Assembly: GCA_903882875.1 (NCBI GenBank)
Contig: CAIRYQ010000011.1
Span: 1 to 64,000, forward strand
DNA from: an uncultured Spartobacteria bacterium
Lineage (GTDB): Bacteria; Verrucomicrobiota; Verrucomicrobiia; Chthoniobacterales; Chthoniobacteraceae
Direction of reading: 5' to 3'
DNA: 64,000 nt
A program made the translations under genes and the position numbers. The notes beneath the pieces are model-generated. The model worked only from the letters and a program-made list of their open reading frames with translations, made no database searches and was not told the DNA's origin. Below, in pieces: positions 23,711-53,664 of the stretch; position 1 is the first letter of the stretch, and every line of letters starts with the position of its first letter.

Positions 23711-25180
23711 ATGATCCGCATCCCTGGACAACCCGGCCGCGACCTCTGCGATTCCCACCTCGGCATCACGCGACGCGACTTGCTGCGCGTCGGCGGCAGC
23801 GCGCTGATGGGCCTCACGCTCGGCTCGATTTTTTCCCTGCAAGGAAAGGCGAAGGCTGCGGGCTCGAATTTCGGCAAGGGCTTCGGCAAGGCGAAGCATG
23901 TCGTGATGATCTACATGCAGGGCGGGCCGTCGCACCTCGACCTGTGGGACCCGAAGGAGAATCTGCCGGAAAAAATGCGCAGTCCGTTTAAGAGCATCCC
24001 GACGCGGATTCCCGGCGTGCATTTCACCGAGGTGCTGCCGGAGCTGGCGAAGCTGAACGACAAGTTCTCGATGATCCGCTCGATGAGCTACACGCCGAAC
24101 GGGCTCTTCAATCACACCGCCGCGATTTACCAAATCATGACGGGCTACACGACGGACAAGGTCTCGCCGAGCGGCCAGCTCGAGCCGCCGAGCCCGAAGG
24201 ATTTCCCGAATTTCGGCAGCAACATCATCCGGCTGAAACCGCCGACGGAGCCGGTGCTGCCATTCGTGATGCTGCCGCGTCCGCTGCAGGAAAGTAATGT
24301 CGTCGGCAAGGGAGGCAGTGCGGGATTCCTCGGCAAGGGCTTCGACCCCTACACGCTCTTCCCCGAGGGCGACGACCTCGACCTCACGAAGATGAACCGC
24401 GTAAAGGTGGACGATTTGAAATTGCGTCCCGACGTTTTTGCCACGCGCTTGCAGCGTCGCGCACGGCTGCGCACGGCGATCGAGGATTCGATGCCGGACA
24501 TCGAGAAGGCCGTCGCGAGCTACAACCTCGACGAGTATTACGACAAGGCGCTGAACTTGATCAGCAACGGCAAGGCGCGCGAGGCGTTCGAGATCGATCG
24601 CGAGGACGACAAGATGCGCGCGCGCTACGGGCTGAATACATTCGGCCAGAGCCTGCTGCTCACACGCCGGCTCATCGAGGCGGGCACGCGCGTGGTCGAG
24701 GTGATCTGGCCCAAGGTGGCGAACAGCGACGCCCATTCATGGGACATGCACCAGGGCCTCACGAACCGCATGAAGGATCAGGCGGCGCCGATGCTCGACA
24801 AGGGCTTCTCGGCATTCCTGCAGGACATGGAATCGCGCGGTCTGCTCGAGGAGACGCTCATCGTGGCGCTCGGCGAATTCGGACGCAGCCCTGAGAAGGG
24901 CGTGAGCACGAGCGGCAATGTGAACAGTTCCGACGGACGTGATCACTGGCCGTATTGCTACACCGCAGTCGTCGCAGGCGCAGGTTCGAAGCGCGGCTAC
25001 GTCCACGGCGAAAGCGACGCCACCGGCGCGAGCCCGAAGGACAAGCCGGTTCATCCCACCGAGCTGCTCGCGAGCATCTATCACGCGACGGGGATTGATC
25101 CCGAGACGATCGTTTACAATCACCTCAACCAGCCGCGCGAACTCGTGAAGGCGAAGCCGGTGGACGGTTTGTTCGCATAG
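23711..25180 (+). CDS. DUF1501 domain-containing protein
   Basis: The 489-residue protein has a twin-arginine-type N-terminus ([20 protein letters not shown]), so export by Tat is likely. The body is typical of DUF1501, an alkaline-phosphatase/sulfatase-superfamily-like group abundant in PVC bacteria: [71 protein letters not shown] and [10 protein letters not shown]. The conserved Asp/His positions needed for metal binding look present. In PVC genomes such proteins usually pair with a PSD1/DUF1553 protein; none is adjacent here. The substrate is unknown. Confidence 0.88.
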
Positions 25181-25489: not shown

Positions 25490-26692
25490 TCAAATTTTCC
25501 ACCGCTTGTGCATCCATATCCATTGTTCGGGATGCCGCAGCAGCGCGCGTTCGAGCGCGGCGTTGAATGCGCGCGCCGTGAGGCGGATCGCCTCGCTCGT
25601 GTTCACGTGCTCGACGACCGGCACCGGCTCCTCGAAACGCAGCACATGCGTGCCGTCCGGCTCGCGCCAGCTCGTCGCGGGGATGACCGGCGCACCCGTG
25701 TCCATCGCGATGATCGGCAGACTGCGAAAGGTGTTCGCAGGCTTGCCAAGAAAATCCGCGACCACGCCCTCGCGCATCGTCGCATGCTGATCGTAGATGA
25801 AGACCACGATCCGCTGCTGCGCAAGCAGATCGAGAATCGTGTCGAGCGATCCGCGCTTTGCGATCGTGCCGAATCCTGCGCGCCGGAATCGCCATGTCAC
25901 ATATGCATTCAGCGGAGCGGGCTTCAGCGGACGGCGCACAAAATGGAACAGCCCCTTGAACTGCGAAAACTGCCCGATGCCCGCGACGGTCGCGACCTCC
26001 CAATTTCCAAAATGTCCGGTGAGCAACAGCAACCCCTTGCCCTTTGCGTATGCGCGCTCAATGACATCAATGCCCTCCACGCGAATCATCGCCTTCTTTT
26101 TTTTTGCCGACATCCACGGCAGCCGGAAAAACTCTCCCATGAACCGCGCGAAATGCCCGTAGTAGGACTGCGCGAGCCGCACGATGTCGGCCTCCGCCAG
26201 CACGTCACCGAAGACGCGCCGCATATTTGCCATCACCGTGCCGCGCTTCACCGGCAGCAGGTGATAGAACAGCTTCCCGAACCACGGCACCTCGATCCGT
26301 TTCGTCTCCGCGACCGCGACCGCCGACGCACTCGTCTCCGTGTGCGTGATAGAAAGGCGAATTTCGCTGATGAAATTGCGATCCATCGCAGTGCGTGCGA
26401 CTGCGCTTGGCTCGACGGACGGCGCACCGTAGCCGTCCTTGCGCACGGAAAAATCATACGGCTCGATTGTCCCGAGCGCCGTCTCACGCGGGAACAATTT
26501 GCAACACGCCTCCTTCGCCGCAAAACGCGCAGCAAGACTCGCAGCACGACCCGCACCTTCGCCAGCGTCCGCAACTTCCTGCTCGCTGAAAAATCTCCGC
26601 AAGTCCTCCGGCGCTGTGTCGCGCAGCAGTTTCTCGATGCGCGCGACCTCGACCGTGTCGATCCCACACCGCGTCGAGGGTGGCGGATTCAT
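25490..26692 (-). CDS. AcpS-type phosphopantetheinyl transferase fused to LpxL-type acyltransferase
   Basis: The 400-residue protein joins two enzymes. Residues 1-130 match holo-ACP synthase: GIDTVEVARIEKLL (Asp12 as Mg ligand), RRFFSEQEV, AARFAAKEACCKLF (Glu61) and LSITHTETSASAVAVAE. Residues about 137-400 match the lysophospholipid/lipid-A secondary acyltransferase family: LLLLTGHFGNWEVATVAG with the HxxxxE catalytic pair His227/Glu232, then FRRAGFGTIAKRG, VFIYDQHATMREGV and a final WIWMHKRW. The start ATG shares one base with the stop of the upstream ketoacyl synthase (TGATG), so translation is coupled. I infer that it activates an acyl carrier protein and also transfers the finished chain to a membrane lipid. 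The frame extends 19 codons upstream, which I reject in favour of MNPPPSTRCG. Confidence 0.85.
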   Translation of the reverse strand: MNPPPSTRCGIDTVEVARIEKLLRDTAPEDLRRFFSEQEVADAGEGAGRAASLAARFAAKEACCKLFPRETALGTIEPYDFSVRKDGYGAPSVEPSAVARTAMDRNFISEIRLSITHTETSASAVAVAETKRIEVPWFGKLFYHLLPVKRGTVMANMRRVFGDVLAEADIVRLAQSYYGHFARFMGEFFRLPWMSAKKKKAMIRVEGIDVIERAYAKGKGLLLLTGHFGNWEVATVAGIGQFSQFKGLFHFVRRPLKPAPLNAYVTWRFRRAGFGTIAKRGSLDTILDLLAQQRIVVFIYDQHATMREGVVADFLGKPANTFRSLPIIAMDTGAPVIPATSWREPDGTHVLRFEEPVPVVEHVNTSEAIRLTARAFNAALERALLRHPEQWIWMHKRWKI

Positions 26693-27975
26693 CACGGTTT
26701 CGCAGCGCGAACCACGAGCGCAACGTTCATCCCGCCGAAACCACGGCACAGCACAAGCGCCACATCACTGCGCGGCCTCTGCGGATCGCGAGAGACAGGC
26801 AGGCTGGAAAATTCCGCAGCCACTTCATTCAGCGTCGGCACGCCGGGCACGACGCCGTGCCGCAGCGCCTCAATCGCAAGCACGAGATCCAGAATCCCCG
26901 ACGCCGCGAGCAGATGGCCGACGCACCACTTGAATGCCGTCACCGGCGGCGGATTGCCGCCGAATGCGCACAAGATTCCCTTCGCCTCCGAGGCATCGGA
27001 CGCAGGCGTGCCGTTGCCGTGCGCCACGATCATGCCGACATCCGCAGTGGTGATTCCCGCATCCAAGAGCGCAAGTGCGATTGCGCGCGCGGGGCCGTCA
27101 CCATCGGGGCGCAGATCCACGACGCCCATCGCTTCCGTCACACAACCGTGGCCGAGAAATTCACCGAGGATCGTCGCTTTGCGCGCCTGCGCATTGTCGA
27201 ACTTCTCCAGCATCACAGCGGCCGCGCCTTCGCCGAAAATCGTTCCGCTGCGCGTGCGATCGAACGGCCGCAACACGTCGCGCGAGAGCAGGCCGAGCTT
27301 GTGATAGCCGAACACCGTCTCCGGCTCGATCGGTGTGTCGTGGCCGACGGCGGCGATGCGATCCGCCTCGTCCGTGCGCAGCGACTCGGCGGCTTCCGCG
27401 ACCGCGAGCACGCCGCCCGCGCATTGGTTCGTGATGCACGCGTTCGTGCCCTTGAACATGTGCCGGATGCCGACGTGGCAGAGCACGTTGTTCGGAAGAT
27501 TTTTCAGCAGCCACATCGGGTTCACCGACGAGCCGAGTTCCGCGCCGAATTTCCGCATGTCACCGCCCGACTCGGTCATGAGCGGGAAGTATTCGTAATT
27601 GCTGCTGTAGGTGCCGCCGCCCGAGCCGACCACGAGGCCGCTGCGGTCGTTGAAATGCGGCACCATCGCCGCGTCGAGCGTCTCGCGGTGCGAGGGAATG
27701 CCGGACGACTTGATCGCCTCGCCACCCGCGTAGATGCCGAAGATATCTGTTCGCGAAATGCTTTTGTGCAGCTTGCGATCCTCGACGAGCTCCTGGTTTT
27801 TCACGCCGTTCACGCCCGCAGCAACTTTCACGGGCCAGCGCGCGGCGTCCCACTGTGTGATCGGTGTCACTGCGGATTGCCCATTGATCACTGCGGCCCA
27901 GATTTTCTCCACAGTGAGGCCCGCGCCGCAGACTGCGCCGCTGCCGGTGATGGCAATGCGAGGTGAATTGCTCAT
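26692..27975 (-). CDS. beta-ketoacyl-ACP synthase II-like, atypical active-site motif
   Basis: The 427-residue thiolase-fold protein belongs to the FabF/KAS II superfamily. The usual TACSSG around the nucleophile reads TNQCAGG; alignment by spacing to its neighbour puts the nucleophile at Cys185. The two histidines (VAHGNGT, His319, and VGHLLAASG, His354) and the lysine before the second (Lys349) are present, so it appears catalytically complete rather than a chain-length-factor with a missing cysteine. It starts 3 bp after the sister synthase and overlaps the next gene by one base. Divergence from the sister suggests a different chain length or starter preference. Confidence 0.85.
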   Translation of the reverse strand: MSNSPRIAITGSGAVCGAGLTVEKIWAAVINGQSAVTPITQWDAARWPVKVAAGVNGVKNQELVEDRKLHKSISRTDIFGIYAGGEAIKSSGIPSHRETLDAAMVPHFNDRSGLVVGSGGGTYSSNYEYFPLMTESGGDMRKFGAELGSSVNPMWLLKNLPNNVLCHVGIRHMFKGTNACITNQCAGGVLAVAEAAESLRTDEADRIAAVGHDTPIEPETVFGYHKLGLLSRDVLRPFDRTRSGTIFGEGAAAVMLEKFDNAQARKATILGEFLGHGCVTEAMGVVDLRPDGDGPARAIALALLDAGITTADVGMIVAHGNGTPASDASEAKGILCAFGGNPPPVTAFKWCVGHLLAASGILDLVLAIEALRHGVVPGVPTLNEVAAEFSSLPVSRDPQRPRSDVALVLCRGFGGMNVALVVRAAKP

Positions 27976-27978
27976 CGG

Positions 27979-29277
27979 TCAGGCCTCCACGAAGTCGGGG
28001 TGGCGGAATGTGAGGGAACTGTTCGAGCCGCCAAAGCCGAGTGAGTTGGAAAGTGCGGCGCGGATGCGCATCGGGCGCGACTGACCGGTCACGAGATTGA
28101 TGTTGCTGCACTGCGGGTCGGGCGTCGCAAAATTCGCGTTCACCGGCGCGATGCCGTCGCGAATCGCGAGAGCGCACACGGCGGCCTCGGCAGCGCCGGC
28201 GGCGGCGATGAGATGGCCCATGCAGCTCTTCGTCGAACTCACGGCGAAATTCGGAAGGTGATCGCCCATCACCGCGCCGAGTGCGACGCACTCGCTGCGG
28301 TCGTTCATCATCGTCGAGGTGCCGTGCGCGTTCACGTAGTCAATGTCCTCCGGCTTCAGCCTCGCATCGGCGAGCGATTGGCAGATGGCCTGAATCGGCC
28401 CGTCGCCATCCGGCGGCGTGTCGGTGATGCGGTAGCAACTCAGCGAATTCCCATCGCCCGCCAGCTCCGCGTAAATCATCGCACCGCGCGCGCGTGCCGA
28501 CTCCCATTTTTCCAGCACGAGAAAAGCCGCGCCTTCGCCGAGCACGAAGCCGTTGCGCGTGCCGTCGAAGGGCCGGCTCGCACGCTCGGGCGTGTCGTTG
28601 TCCGTCGAGAGCGCGCCGAGCAGGCAGAAGCCCGAGAGGCCGATCGGGTTCAGCATCGAGTCAAAGCCGCCCGCGATCATCGCATCCACGTTGCCACGCC
28701 GCATCACTTTCAGCGCGGTGCCGAGCGCCTGGCCGCCGGAGGAGCACGCAGTGTGCACCGCCGTCGCGTAACCGCGAATGCCGAAATTCTTCGTGAGCAG
28801 CGAAAGGCCGGTGTTCGTCTGGGTGCGGCAAAATGCGATCGGATCTGCCGGGTAATCCGGACTGAGCAGGCCGTCGGGGTTGAATTCACCATCCGCCGCA
28901 GCGTGGCGATGCACGCTTTCGAGTTCCTCATACGACACGCCCATCATCCCCGCGCCGACGACGAAGCCCCACCGCTCCGCGTCCGCCGCAGTCGGCCGGA
29001 TGCCTGCGTCGGCGAACGCCTGCTCGGCGGCATTCAGCGCGAAACGGTGCGAGCGCGAGGCGAGCTTCAGCAGCTTGCGGTCGGCGATGGCGTTTTCAAA
29101 ATCGAAGCCCTTCACCTCCGCGCCGATGCGCGTGGAAAAGCCGCTCGCGTCGAAAATCGTGATCGGTCCTGCGCCCGACTTTCCGGCGCGCAGTCCGGCC
29201 CAAGTCTCCGCCGTCGTGTTGCCGATCGGCGTGACCATCCCGATGCCGGTGATTGCAACGCGTACGCGCTGGCTCAT
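27979..29277 (-). CDS. beta-ketoacyl-ACP synthase II-like
   Basis: The 432-residue protein has the full FabF-type catalytic set: AVHTACSSGGQALGTALKVM with Cys178, VNAHGTST with His318 and SSTKSCMGHLIAAAGAAEAA with Lys350 and His355. The N-terminal AITGIGMVTPIGNTTAETW and the C-terminal NSLGFGGSNSSLTFR are also typical. It extends an ACP-bound acyl chain with malonyl-ACP. Its ATG overlaps the stop of the hotdog gene (ATGA) and the next synthase starts 3 bp after its stop. Because it sits in a compact operon without fabD, fabG or acpP, a specialised rather than housekeeping role is likely. Confidence 0.9.
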   Translation of the reverse strand: MSQRVRVAITGIGMVTPIGNTTAETWAGLRAGKSGAGPITIFDASGFSTRIGAEVKGFDFENAIADRKLLKLASRSHRFALNAAEQAFADAGIRPTAADAERWGFVVGAGMMGVSYEELESVHRHAAADGEFNPDGLLSPDYPADPIAFCRTQTNTGLSLLTKNFGIRGYATAVHTACSSGGQALGTALKVMRRGNVDAMIAGGFDSMLNPIGLSGFCLLGALSTDNDTPERASRPFDGTRNGFVLGEGAAFLVLEKWESARARGAMIYAELAGDGNSLSCYRITDTPPDGDGPIQAICQSLADARLKPEDIDYVNAHGTSTMMNDRSECVALGAVMGDHLPNFAVSSTKSCMGHLIAAAGAAEAAVCALAIRDGIAPVNANFATPDPQCSNINLVTGQSRPMRIRAALSNSLGFGGSNSSLTFRHPDFVEA

Positions 29278-30119
29278 GCCGCGGCCTCCGGAGTGAGTTC
29301 GACGCGCGCAGCACCGAGCCGACCTTTTTCGTTCCGCGTCTCGACGGAAATTTTCAGCTCATCGCCCTCGTGACGCATCACCTTCGCCTCGATGCTCAGC
29401 AGGTCGCCCGGCGAGATGAAATCGCGCAGCTTCATGTCCACGACCGCGCGCGGAGTCCACGTCGCGCCTGCGCGCACGGGCACACTCGCGGCGAGCGCGG
29501 TGACGAGCTTGAGATTCATATTCATGAGCAGGGTGCCGGGAAACACGGGGCGTTTTGGAAAATGGTCGCCGAAGAAAGCAGCCTGCGCGGGAACCTGCAA
29601 CGTCGCGCGTGCCTTCATTTGCGGGCCGTCCTCGACCGTAAGCCCGTCGAGCGAAAACGCGAGCACTCCGGTGAACGCACCCGGCACCGCGCCTTCGCCG
29701 CGGAGCAGCGCGAGGCGGACGCGGAGCAAATCGGGATCGTCAAATTCGCCAATCGGCACCATCGGCCCCATGCAGTGATGCAGCCGCAGCACCGGCTCGC
29801 CGTTCACCGACGCGCAGCCGCCGTAGGCCACGTCGCTGGTATCCGCGTTTTCGAGTTCGGCGGAAAGTTCGAGCGTGTCGCCGGGGCGCACTTCGCGCAG
29901 CAGCTCGACGCGGCCCGCGAGCCCCGCGACCGGGCGGTGCGAAAAATCAATCTTCGCCATCGCCGACCACGCCGCGAGCTGCCCGGTCGCCTCCGCGACG
30001 AGCGACATCGGAAACTCCGCGAGCGCCGCCGGGATCGCGTAGCTCCCGGAAATCCGCACGCCCGGCTCGATCACGTTGATGCGATCAACAAACGAGAATG
30101 CGCGGAAGTGGTGATCCAT
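29274..30119 (-). CDS. double-hotdog FabZ-like dehydratase with one composite active site
   Basis: The 281-residue protein is two fused hotdog domains. The first half (residues about 5-125) keeps the helix with the catalytic acid, FPMSLVAEATGQLAAW (Glu43), but has lost the HFP segment. The second half (about 155-270) keeps FFGDHFPKRPVFPG (His186) but has Asn200 where the acid belongs (LLMNMNLK). In FabA/FabZ dimers each site uses His from one subunit and Glu/Asp from the other, so this fusion should retain exactly one working site. It would dehydrate 3-hydroxyacyl-ACP. I choose ATG 30119; a TTG four codons upstream is in frame. It is first in a four-gene operon. Confidence 0.8.
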   Translation of the reverse strand: MDHHFRAFSFVDRINVIEPGVRISGSYAIPAALAEFPMSLVAEATGQLAAWSAMAKIDFSHRPVAGLAGRVELLREVRPGDTLELSAELENADTSDVAYGGCASVNGEPVLRLHHCMGPMVPIGEFDDPDLLRVRLALLRGEGAVPGAFTGVLAFSLDGLTVEDGPQMKARATLQVPAQAAFFGDHFPKRPVFPGTLLMNMNLKLVTALAASVPVRAGATWTPRAVVDMKLRDFISPGDLLSIEAKVMRHEGDELKISVETRNEKGRLGAARVELTPEAAA

Positions 30120-30240: not shown

Positions 30241-31785
30241 CTATTTCAGCCACCCCACGATGTCCGCGCGCAGCTTGGCGGCGTCCTTGTCGAGGAGATA
30301 CATCATGTGGCCGCTGTCGAATGTCGCGATGGTGATGTTCTTGCGCAGGCTGTCGGGGATGGGCATGTGCTCGAGCGAGAAGCGCATCGCATCCGGCGGC
30401 ACGGCGAGGTCGCGCAGGCCTTGGCAGACGAGCACGCGGAGGTTCGGGTTTTCCTTCATCGCATTCGCGAGGCGCGGCTCCATGCTCGCGTAGCGGTTTG
30501 CGAAATTTTTGTAGTTCCACGGCAGGCCTGCGAGGATGCGGTAGGGCTGGTCGGTCTCGTAGCCGAGCGTGCCGCGCACGTAGGCGTTCGCCGCGGCACT
30601 GAACGGCCCGGCGATGAATGCGTGGCTGGGATCAAATTCCGGGCGCGGGTCGCTGCGGTCGCCATCCTCGGCGACGACGCGCGCATCGAAACGGCCGATG
30701 ATTTTCCCCTCCTTCTTCAGCAGTGCCTTGCGGAAGGCGGTGGGCGAAATCCGCAACTCGTGCTCCTCGACAAACTCCGGCGTGAGGCCGGTGAAGCGCG
30801 CGACCTTTTCCGCGATGCGGCGGCGCTCGGCGGCGGAAATGGCGCGGCCTTTCAGCAATGCCGTGGCGTATTCGCCGAATGCGAACGTGCGGACTTCGGC
30901 GAGCGTCTTTTCGAGATTCGAGGAAAGCTCGGGCGCGAGCTTCCCGTGGAATGCGGCGCTCGCGGTCTGCGTCGGGAGGAATGTGAGAAAAGGCAGATCG
31001 TTCGCGGTGTCGGGCTGGAGCGTCTGGAAATTCAGCAGGCCGCTCACGACGATGAACCCGTTCAGAAACATGCCGTGCTTGTCCTGCAGGTATTCGCAGA
31101 GGCCCGCGCCTCGGATGCCGCCGTAGCTTTCGCCGCAGAGAAATTTTGGCGACATCCATCGCTGTTCGCGCGTGGCGAAGAGGCGGATGAAATCGCCGAC
31201 CGACTCGACATCCTCATCCACACCCCAGAACTGCTCGCCCTTTTCGCCCTTCGCCGGACGGCTCGCGCCGGTGCCGACAGGATCAATGAACACGAGGTCG
31301 GCGACATCGAGGATGCTGTTCGCGTTGTCCGAGATTTTGCCGAGCACCTCGGGCGTGACGCCATCGGGCGGGAGCGCGATTTTCTTCGGGCCGAGTCCGC
31401 CGAAGTGCAGCCACACCGCGCTGCTGCCGGGGCCGCCGTTGAAGCAGAAGATGATCGGGCGCTTCGTGTCTGCGGTAGCGAGCGGCTTTCCGTCTTCGCC
31501 GGTGCGCGCGTAGTAAACGTAGAAGACATCGGCACGCGTCGCGCCGTCATCCTTCAACAACGGGAGCGTGCCGGTCTTCGCAGCGTATTTGATTTCGGTG
31601 CCCGCAATGGTGACGCTTCCCTTGCTGTCCTTCGGCTTCTGTTCCTTTGTCTTGTCGTCTTTCTTGTCGTCCTTTTTTTCTGCGGCGTCCTTTTTTTCCT
31701 CTGGCTTCGGGTCGTCGGCGCGCAGCGGAAATGCGAGAAATGCGGCGGTGAAAATGGCGGCGGCGGAGAGCGGGAGTTTCAGCAT
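30241..31785 (-). CDS. S10 family serine carboxypeptidase
   Basis: The 514-residue protein has a signal peptide (LPLSAAAIFTAAFLAFPLRA) and then a Lys/Asp/Glu-rich linker of about 35 residues that looks disordered. The alpha/beta-hydrolase body shows the family landmarks: FCFNGGPGSSAVWLHFGGLG for the oxyanion hole, FLCGESYGGIRG with the catalytic Ser, CQGLRDLAVPPDA with the Asp and TFDSGHMMYL with the His. It should remove C-terminal residues from peptides in the periplasm or outside the cell. Single gene; its 3' end is near a candidate terminator and the acyl operon follows on the same strand. Confidence 0.88.
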   Translation of the reverse strand: MLKLPLSAAAIFTAAFLAFPLRADDPKPEEKKDAAEKKDDKKDDKTKEQKPKDSKGSVTIAGTEIKYAAKTGTLPLLKDDGATRADVFYVYYARTGEDGKPLATADTKRPIIFCFNGGPGSSAVWLHFGGLGPKKIALPPDGVTPEVLGKISDNANSILDVADLVFIDPVGTGASRPAKGEKGEQFWGVDEDVESVGDFIRLFATREQRWMSPKFLCGESYGGIRGAGLCEYLQDKHGMFLNGFIVVSGLLNFQTLQPDTANDLPFLTFLPTQTASAAFHGKLAPELSSNLEKTLAEVRTFAFGEYATALLKGRAISAAERRRIAEKVARFTGLTPEFVEEHELRISPTAFRKALLKKEGKIIGRFDARVVAEDGDRSDPRPEFDPSHAFIAGPFSAAANAYVRGTLGYETDQPYRILAGLPWNYKNFANRYASMEPRLANAMKENPNLRVLVCQGLRDLAVPPDAMRFSLEHMPIPDSLRKNITIATFDSGHMMYLLDKDAAKLRADIVGWLK

Positions 31786-44588: not shown

Positions 44589-46067
44589 TCAGATCAGTTC
44601 GCGAATTGCCCGGCCATCCTGCACCGCGCTTGCGACATCCCGCGGGATGGTCGGGTCGAGGCGCATCTCGGCCACGTCGAAGACCGTCTGGAAAATCGTC
44701 GCCATGAGGTTTTCCGGGCCGTACGCGTCGCTGTCTGGCTTCTCGGCGAAGCGATCCGACTGGCCGATCACCTGCCCCATTTTCAAGCCGCCGCCAGCGA
44801 GGACGAGCGGAGTGAGATTGCCGTGGTGATCGCGTCCACCGTCCTTGTTGATCCGCGGGGAGCGGCCCATCTCGCCGGTGATCACGAGCAGGATTTTTTC
44901 GTTGAGTCCGCGCGACTGCACGTCTTCGAGAAATGCGGACACGGCGTGATCCACCTGGCTGCCGAGGAAGTTCATCCCGCCGAGATTTTTCGGGCTGTTG
45001 GAATTCGAGTGCATGTCCCAGCCGCAGTCGCTCACGGTCACGAATCCGCAGCCCGCCTCGCACAGCCGCCGGGCCATGAGCAACTGGTGGCCGAGCATGT
45101 TACTCGCGCGCTTCATGTCGTGCCAGCGCGTCACGTCCTCGAGGCGGAAGAGCCTGCTCGTGTCGTATTGCGCGACCGTGCGCGGGTCTTCCTTGGAGAG
45201 ATCGAACGCCTCGCCGACGCCTTTCGTGATCACCTCGAATGCCTGCTGCTGATACCGATCCATCACGTCAAAGGTGCCCGAGCTTTCCGCGTTGCGACGG
45301 AGGCTGTCGAGTTGGCTCAGGAGATTCCGGCGGTCGGTGAAACGTCCCGGCTCCATGCGAAGCTCCATGTTGTCGCGCATCACATTGCCGCCGCCGACAC
45401 GGGCGGCCTTGGCGTCCTTCCCCTTGCGCGACTCGCCCTTGCTCACGTAGCCGGCGACGTTGAACGCCTCGTAATTCAGCCCGAGTTCGCCGCCCTGCGT
45501 CACGCTTCCGAGCGCGGATGTTTCAAAGTTCGATCCCAGCGGGATGCCCGGTTGCACGGCCTCGGGCAGCACCTGCACATTCAGCGGAATTCCCGTCAAC
45601 GGATGATTCGTCCCGGCAACGCGCGCATAGATCGCGCTCATCGCGGCCTTCGTAGGATTTCCCGCGGTGGAGACGGCCTCGTAAGTGTGCCCCGCATTGC
45701 GGCTCTGAAAGGAACGCACAATCGCGAGCCGGTCCGCCAGCTTCGCCATCTTCGGGAAATGCGATCCGAAATGCACACCGGGCAGGCTCGTCGGGACTGT
45801 ACCGAACATGGACCGGATGCCGCTCGGCGCATCGGGCTTCGGATCCCACGTCTCGAGTTGCGACGGCCCTCCGTGCAGGAAAAGCAGCACGACGGACTTG
45901 TCCTTCACATACGGCCTCAGCCCCGCCGCCGGTCCCGCGCCCGCCTTCGCCGCGAGGAGGTGCGACAGCGTGAGTCCGCCGAACCCCAGCGACCCGATGC
46001 GCAGAAAATCGCGTCGGCTGAAGCCCGCGCAGTTGTGCGCCATTTTGGTGTCTGAGATTCTGAACAT
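44589..46067 (-). CDS. DUF1501 domain-containing protein
   Basis: The 492-residue protein has a Tat-type leader (FSRRDFLRIGSLGFGGLTLS) and the DUF1501 body: SVVLLFLHGGPSQLETWDPK, VHFGSHFPKMAKLADRLAIV, CGWDMHSNSNSP, ILLVITGEMGRSPRI and GRDHHGNLTPLVLAGGGL. Compared with the copy at 23711 it has a long central insertion (residues about 170-290) rich in Gly and charged residues. No PSD1 partner is adjacent. Predicted periplasmic; substrate unknown. The ATG at 46067 is used; an in-frame ATG eight codons later is an alternative. Confidence 0.88.
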   Translation of the reverse strand: MFRISDTKMAHNCAGFSRRDFLRIGSLGFGGLTLSHLLAAKAGAGPAAGLRPYVKDKSVVLLFLHGGPSQLETWDPKPDAPSGIRSMFGTVPTSLPGVHFGSHFPKMAKLADRLAIVRSFQSRNAGHTYEAVSTAGNPTKAAMSAIYARVAGTNHPLTGIPLNVQVLPEAVQPGIPLGSNFETSALGSVTQGGELGLNYEAFNVAGYVSKGESRKGKDAKAARVGGGNVMRDNMELRMEPGRFTDRRNLLSQLDSLRRNAESSGTFDVMDRYQQQAFEVITKGVGEAFDLSKEDPRTVAQYDTSRLFRLEDVTRWHDMKRASNMLGHQLLMARRLCEAGCGFVTVSDCGWDMHSNSNSPKNLGGMNFLGSQVDHAVSAFLEDVQSRGLNEKILLVITGEMGRSPRINKDGGRDHHGNLTPLVLAGGGLKMGQVIGQSDRFAEKPDSDAYGPENLMATIFQTVFDVAEMRLDPTIPRDVASAVQDGRAIRELI

Positions 46068-52206: not shown

Positions 52207-53664
52207 TCACGCGAGCACGCCCTTCACCACACTCCCATGCACGTCGGTGAGCCGGTAGTGGCGACCTTGGAATTTGAACGTGAGTCGGGTGTGATCAATC
52301 CCGAGGCAGTGCAGCAGCGTCGCGTGCAAATCATGCACTTCCACGGGATCGCGTACGACGTTGTAGCTGTAGTCGTCCGTCTCGCCAAAAGTGATGCCCG
52401 GCCGGATGCCGCCGCCCGCGAGCCAGATCGTGAAGCACCGCGGATGATGGTCGCGCCCGTAGTCGTCCTTCGTGAGTTTGCCCTGGCAATAAACCGTGCG
52501 CCCGAATTCGCCGCCCCACACGACGAGCGTGTCGTCGAGCAGGCCGCGCTGTTTCAGGTCCTCGATGAGCGCCGCGCTCGGCTGGTCGGTGTCGCGGCAC
52601 TGGCCCGCAATTTGGCTCGGCAGCTTCGTGTGCTGATCCCATCCCCGGTGGAAAAGCTGGATGAACCGCACGCCGCGCTCCGCGAGCCGACGGGCAAGCA
52701 GGCAGTTCGCCGCAAATGTCCCCGGCTTGCGCGCCTCGGGGCCGTAGAGGTCGAACGCGCTCGCGGGTTCGCGTGAAACATCCGTCAGCTCCGGCACGCT
52801 CGTCTGCATTCGATACGCCAGCTCGTATTGCGCGATGCGCGTGGAAATTTCCGGGTCGCCGAATTCCGCGAGCTGCATCCCGTTCAGTTTCGCGAGATCA
52901 TCAAGCATCCGCCGCCGCGCCGTCGTGTCGAGTCCCGCGGGGTTGGAAAGAAACAGCACCGGATCGCCACCGGCGCGGAATTTGATCCCTTGATGCGTCG
53001 TCGGCAAAAAGCCGCTGCTCCACAGCCGGTCGTAGAGCGGCTGGTCGTTCGGATTGCCCGTGCCGTTCGAGAGCAGCGCGACGAATGCAGGCAGATCGCG
53101 GTTCGTGCTGCCGAGTCCGTAGCTGAGCCACGAGCCGATGCTCGGCCGCCCCGCGAGCTGTGCGCCGGTCTGGAAAAACGTGATCGCCGGATCGTGATTG
53201 ATGGCCTCGGTGTGCATCGTCTTGATGAAGCACAGCTCGTCCGCCACGCGTGCCGTGTGCGGCAGCAGTTCGCTCAACCACGCGCCGCTGCGCCCGTGCT
53301 GCGCAAAGCGGAAGCGCGTCGGCGCGATGGGAAAATGATCCTGCGTCGCCGTCATGCCCGTGAGCCGCTGGCCCTGGCGGATCGAGTCCGGCAGATCGGT
53401 GCCGTGCCGCTCCGCGAGCTGCGGCTTGTAGTCGAACAAATCCATCTGCGACGGCGCACCTGATTGAAAAAGATAGATCACGCGCTTCGCCTTCGGCGCA
53501 AAATGCGGCAGGCCCGGCAGTCCGCCCGTGGCCGTCGCATCGTTCGTCGGCGCGGCGAACAACTCCTCATTCAACAACGACGCCAGCGCCGTAGCACCGA
53601 GGCCCACGCGCCCGAAGAAATGTCGGCGGTTGATGAGCAAGCGATGGTCGAGCAGCGGATTCAT
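52207..53664 (-). CDS. DUF1501 protein, PSD1 partner
   Basis: The 485-residue protein has an N-terminal [19 protein letters not shown] leader and DUF1501 features: [71 protein letters not shown] and [17 protein letters not shown]. The C-terminal [20 protein letters not shown] followed by [11 protein letters not shown] defines the larger planctomycete-type subgroup. It starts 7 bp after the PSD1 gene, the classic pairing of this subgroup. Substrate unknown; export probably by Tat. Confidence 0.9.

Follow-up and report, generated by a model that had tools for sequence, protein, structure and literature searches.

Four adjacent genes on the minus strand of the window (i.e., the whole stretch of 64,000 nucleotides analysed here) form the distal half of a ten-gene set, and only that half lies in the window. 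Our preferred reading, to which we give a probability of about 0.58, is that the complete set encodes a fully reducing, dedicated type II fatty-acid synthase that brings along its own acyl carrier protein (ACP) and phosphopantetheinyl transferase, and that an LpxL-family acyltransferase domain passes the chain to an envelope lipid. Gene content, gene order, intact motifs and co-inheritance were all established directly. The cluster is real and conserved and, just as the earlier note on this DNA had proposed for the pathway, apparently undescribed, no description of the gene set having been found in the literature searched (open-licence papers).

The four genes of the window

The four genes between 25490 and 30119 are, in the direction of transcription:

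29274..30119, minus strand: double-hotdog 3-hydroxyacyl-ACP dehydratase, 281 amino acids (Pfam FabA-like)
27979..29277, minus strand: KS1, FabF-like ketosynthase, 432 amino acids (Pfam; Cys-His-Lys-His intact)
26692..27975, minus strand: KS2, divergent ketosynthase, 427 amino acids (Pfam; atypical NQC-x-GG motif)
25490..26692, minus strand: AcpS-type phosphopantetheinyl transferase fused to an LpxL-family acyltransferase, 400 amino acids (Pfam ACPS and Lip_A_acyltrans)

Their identities and junctions, as first described in the earlier note, were borne out by reading of the open reading frames and by a Pfam profile search, where every domain assignment lies above its curated cut-off. The dehydratase and KS1 frames overlap by four bases (ATGA), KS1 and KS2 are separated by three (TGA CCG ATG), and KS2 shares one base with the AcpS-LpxL gene (TGATG). 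About 15 genomes, some of them truncated by contig ends, have dehydratase, KS1, KS2 and LpxL in identical order and on the same strand, and this recurrence argues against a chance arrangement. Among congeners the four proteins are 84-95% identical. No foreign base composition was seen: GC and GC3 of the four genes resemble those of their neighbours and are typical of the genome.

Upstream, a serine-carboxypeptidase-like gene of S10 type (recognised by eye; 30241-31785, minus strand) ends 121 bases before the dehydratase, with which it is possibly co-transcribed. The same type of peptidase gene stands beside the four genes of a congener (genome G490). In an empty-site comparison, the S10 peptidase and PEPCK neighbours also occur in other members of the family, without conserved flanks. 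Three DUF1501-like proteins (again by eye) are scattered over the window, at 23711-25180, 44589-46067 and 52207-53664.

A ten-gene cluster split in this genus

Roughly twelve related genomes have the four genes at the end of a longer, strictly ordered cluster, which component mapping across the relatives resolves as COND-HYD(-HYD)-ICMT-SDR1-SDR2-ACP-DH-KS1-KS2-(AcpS-)LpxL. A Burkholderiales copy, contiguous like that of genome G677, keeps this order except for shuffled accessory genes (COND, HYD and ICMT). Wherever the contig of a relative reaches far enough, the upstream genes directly precede the dehydratase, including the ACP, a FabG-type ketoreductase and a FabL-type enoyl reductase. A search of the window's own genome for ACPs found the missing first half on another contig:

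contig C5, L049:8668-13991, minus strand: six-gene block comprising a condensation/PapA-like protein, a lipoprotein hydrolase, an ICMT-like membrane protein, the FabL-type SDR1, the FabG-type SDR2 and the ACP

This disposes of the view that the system lacks an ACP and a ketoreductase and has to borrow them from primary metabolism, a view put forward from the window alone and dropped once the C5 block was found; nor is the set conserved in relatives without these two activities, which in the neighbourhood comparison lie directly upstream. The absence of a malonyltransferase, remarked on at the same time, did hold for every cluster copy read.

In the window's genus the cluster breaks exactly between ACP and dehydratase. 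We take this split over two loci to be real, since both halves lie away from contig ends in the window's genome and the congener G490 is arranged alike, with its ACP (97% identical over 89 comparable residues) on a different contig from its four genes. An assembly artefact is disfavoured on the same grounds. All ten frames are open, and their catalytic motifs are intact.

The window's genome additionally carries a separate AcpS (contig C25), two other LpxL homologues (C34 and C117) and LpxC (C64), so the cluster is an extra, dedicated set beyond primary metabolism, in a cell capable of making lipid A. Orthologues of KS2 are rare: three of 40 genomes of the family have one, all three in a single genus, as do 12 of 245 in another order of the class (that of genome G101) and two of 141 in a draw from the class, the window's genome included, and a draw of 387 genomes from the phylum returned the window's own genome only. 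A scan of contigs with KS2, which relied on peptide patterns of close relatives and may miss distant copies, found orthologous loci in several Verrucomicrobia metagenome-assembled genomes and one from the Burkholderiales. Such a patchy distribution is consistent with repeated loss or with lateral transfer.

What the enzymes are likely to do

The dehydratase matches the Pfam FabA-like and 4HBT families, and its AlphaFold2 model, of moderate confidence (mean pLDDT 74.7), contains a pair of hotdog repeats, and its structural matches are tandem-hotdog enzymes (Z 15-18). The active site of FabZ takes one residue from each subunit. In the fused protein, Glu43 of the N-terminal and His186 of the C-terminal hotdog are identical in 13 of 13 orthologues, position 200 (the usual FabZ Glu site) being variable among them. 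To judge from the sequence, each fused protein thus carries one His-Glu pair of the FabA/FabZ type, and by analogy Glu43 and His186 would form its single predicted active site.

KS1 and KS2 both have the N- and C-terminal ketoacyl-synthase domains of Pfam, but fall into separate clades of the ketosynthase tree, KS1 with the normal Cys-His-Lys-His set and KS2 with its unusual NQC-x-GG motif. In the Burkholderiales KS2 (L067:10001-11275) the catalytic Cys is replaced by Ser, in the style of a chain-length factor, and KS2 is likely to be a chain-length-factor-like partner of KS1.

In the fusion protein the ACPS domain occupies residues 9-94 and Lip_A_acyltrans residues 138-399. The former passes PF01648 (38.5 bits, cut-off 25), its FxxKEAxxK motif reading FAAKEACCK, and the latter PF03279 (136 bits, cut-off 22.3), with the HX4E motif present as HFGNWE (i.e., HxGNxE intact). 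A single polypeptide that would both load and unload the ACP is unusual in its own right. Of the 16 loci with a readable copy of the gene, 12 have the AcpS domain; the four relatives that have lost it are L063:11386-12258, L065:11283-12161, L066:2180-3091 and L134:4878-5675, the Lake Pavin copy (L066) retaining a short stub that resembles the AcpS-LpxL N-terminus.

SDR1 of the C5 block has FabL as its best PDB match (3oic, E 5e-59), the Bacillus subtilis enoyl-ACP reductase III being its closest solved structure, and shows Tyr-x6-Lys in every copy read. Its score on the FabL equivalog NF005975, by far its best family match, is 320.5 bits, slightly under the cut-off of 328, and such SDRs can be misassigned; we call it FabL-like. 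Unlike the B. subtilis enzyme it belongs to a specialised cluster, where it would act on the cluster's own ACP, and it is present in every cluster copy whose DNA extends that far. SDR2 is a ketoreductase of FabG type according to the FabG models. Given a FabL-like SDR1 and a FabG-like SDR2, the cluster would hold every step of the reducing cycle except malonyl loading.

The ACP (L049:8668-9093, minus strand; 141 amino acids) is conserved across its whole length, including a C-terminal extension of about 65 residues absent from ordinary ACPs. The lipoprotein hydrolase carries a GHSQG motif and matches no Pfam family, and its AlphaFold2 model (mean pLDDT 41) is unusable.

A proposed dedicated route to an envelope lipid

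These assignments suggest the following pathway. The AcpS domain would activate the cluster's own ACP, on which KS1, with KS2 as its partner or chain-length factor, would extend an acyl chain from malonyl units supplied by primary metabolism. The FabG-like, dehydratase and FabL-like enzymes would fully reduce each round, and the LpxL domain would finally transfer the finished chain from the ACP to an envelope lipid. We infer the full reduction, the pairing of the two ketosynthases and the transfer to lipid. That these genes form a module for an acyl chain, with a transferase of the LpxL family, had been suggested from the window alone and is supported here, an outer-membrane lipid being a plausible target. 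Lipid A is our best guess at the acceptor, though enzymes of the LpxL family acylate lipids other than lipid A too, and aryl-polyene clusters likewise contain an acyltransferase; both points count against our reading.

The best functional parallel is the rhizobial acpXL-lpxXL system, which makes a very-long (about C26-C34) acyl chain carried by lipid A, and it is by analogy with this system that we guess the present chain to be long or very long. The rhizobial cluster comprises acpXL, fabZXL, fabF2XL, fabF1XL, a dehydrogenase and lpxXL (PMC11901934). Reading of the Sinorhizobium meliloti locus gives ACP-FabZ-KS-KS-dehydrogenase-LpxL, nearly the same order and logic as here, and one of its ketosynthases has lost the Cys; in S. 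meliloti and A. fabrum, as in the present cluster, a dedicated ACP stands together with a dehydratase, two ketosynthases (one maybe non-catalytic) and a reductase, and an LpxL-family transferase is the terminal member. The parts, however, are not the same. Where the rhizobial system has a zinc-binding dehydrogenase and a single hotdog, ours has SDRs of FabL and FabG type and a fused double hotdog; its AcpS is fused to LpxL, and the condensation/PapA-like, hydrolase and ICMT-like genes, which are without acpXL counterpart, point to an extra tailoring step.

It is tempting to go further and see in this patchily distributed, self-contained synthase a counterpart to the rhizobial very-long-chain system that evolved independently of it, placing on verrucomicrobial lipid A a new chain that is long, fully reduced and perhaps further esterified or methylated, with a fusion enzyme that both activates and unloads the carrier. 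We offer this fuller picture tentatively, with the odds somewhat against it. If a long chain on lipid A proved true, the rhizobial strategy of membrane-spanning chains for stress resistance would have had more than one origin, each from different parts. The lipid A and envelope lipids of Verrucomicrobiota seem to be little known (our literature searches turned up little), and a complete, dedicated acyl synthase that ends in a transferase of its own points to the exact genes and the lipid fraction of interest.

Other interpretations

A highly reducing type II polyketide pathway leading to a lipid other than lipid A (e.g., a glycerolipid or an amino- or hydroxy-lipid), in which the PapA-like protein forms an ester, is the alternative that fares best, although we find it rather unlikely. 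Its attraction lies in the type II clusters of Streptomyces plasmids (NZ_CP108007 and NZ_CP106799), whose ACPs match the C5 ACP nearly full-length (about 120 residues, 37-41%) and stand alongside a ketoreductase, two dehydratases and two ketosynthases. In the tree KS2 groups with the Cys-less Streptomyces KS2, to which it is possibly related, and the condensation/PapA-like and ICMT-like genes would suit such a pathway as well. The pairing of the two KS2s may, however, reflect long-branch attraction, and the terminal transferase belongs to the lipid A acyltransferase family. The plasmid clusters also differ in having their hotdogs as separate genes, with a FabD of their own, a KASIII, a third ketosynthase fusion and oxidative tailoring, and in having no LpxL.

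A polyene product, which the earlier note had entertained, is improbable. It would mean an aryl-polyene-like (APE) or other polyene pigment cluster, where unreduced double bonds accumulate in a chain anchored in the outer membrane. APE clusters do combine two ketosynthase systems, a dehydratase, a ketoreductase, an ACP and a protein of the lysophospholipid-acyltransferase family (PMC8358021), all of which have their likeness here, and the ApeA-R cluster of Escherichia coli CFT073 would share a chain-length factor as well. No enoyl reductase is seen in that cluster, whereas the FabL-type enzyme is found in every sufficiently long copy of ours, and the copies read lack an aryl starter ligase, an MMPL exporter and LolA, as well as the glycosyltransferase and second ACP of the APE system. 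The ketosynthases stay below cut-off on the APE-type models PRK09185 and PRK09116; their best scores are 243.6 on NF006618 (cut-off 407) and 247.4 on NF006587 (cut-off 470), models that E. coli ApeO and ApeR pass with 556 and 779. On these profile comparisons we reject membership in the APE family. The case for an undescribed pathway had been said to fall if homologues sat inside a complete APE or PUFA cluster; a larger cluster does surround them, though one that falls short of every APE and XL family model tested. Elsewhere in the window's genome, the FabF-like ketosynthase loci on contigs C59, C68 and C120 were inspected for an APE cluster and none is one. Contig C68 holds (L048:7811-10150, minus strand) a 779-amino-acid open reading frame with two tandem ketosynthase N-terminal matches, outside any recognisable polyketide synthase cluster.

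True orthology with the rhizobial acpXL-lpxXL cluster, suggested by the same activities in a very similar order (ACP-DH-KS-KS-(dehydrogenase)-LpxL), is very improbable. The present cluster is not a member, since all four XL equivalog models tested fail whilst the S. meliloti proteins pass: the C5 ACP reaches 48.9 bits on NF005079 (AcpXL; cut-off 83, S. meliloti 189.5), the ketosynthases at best 310.7 on NF005076 (FabF1XL; 629 and 770) and 63.5 on NF005084 (FabF2XL; 320 and 618), and the acyltransferase 97 on NF005120 (LpxXL; 273 and 492.5). Neither ketosynthase pairs with an XL ketosynthase in the tree, and the reductase families and the number of hotdogs differ as described above.

Finally, the split over two contigs in the window's genome and in G490, together with the absence of the cluster from most of the family, might be read as decay, the four genes being a remnant that is no longer a working pathway in this genus, but ten open frames with intact catalytic motifs, 84-95% protein identity over the four genes among congeners and a base composition like that of the rest of the genome make this hardly credible.
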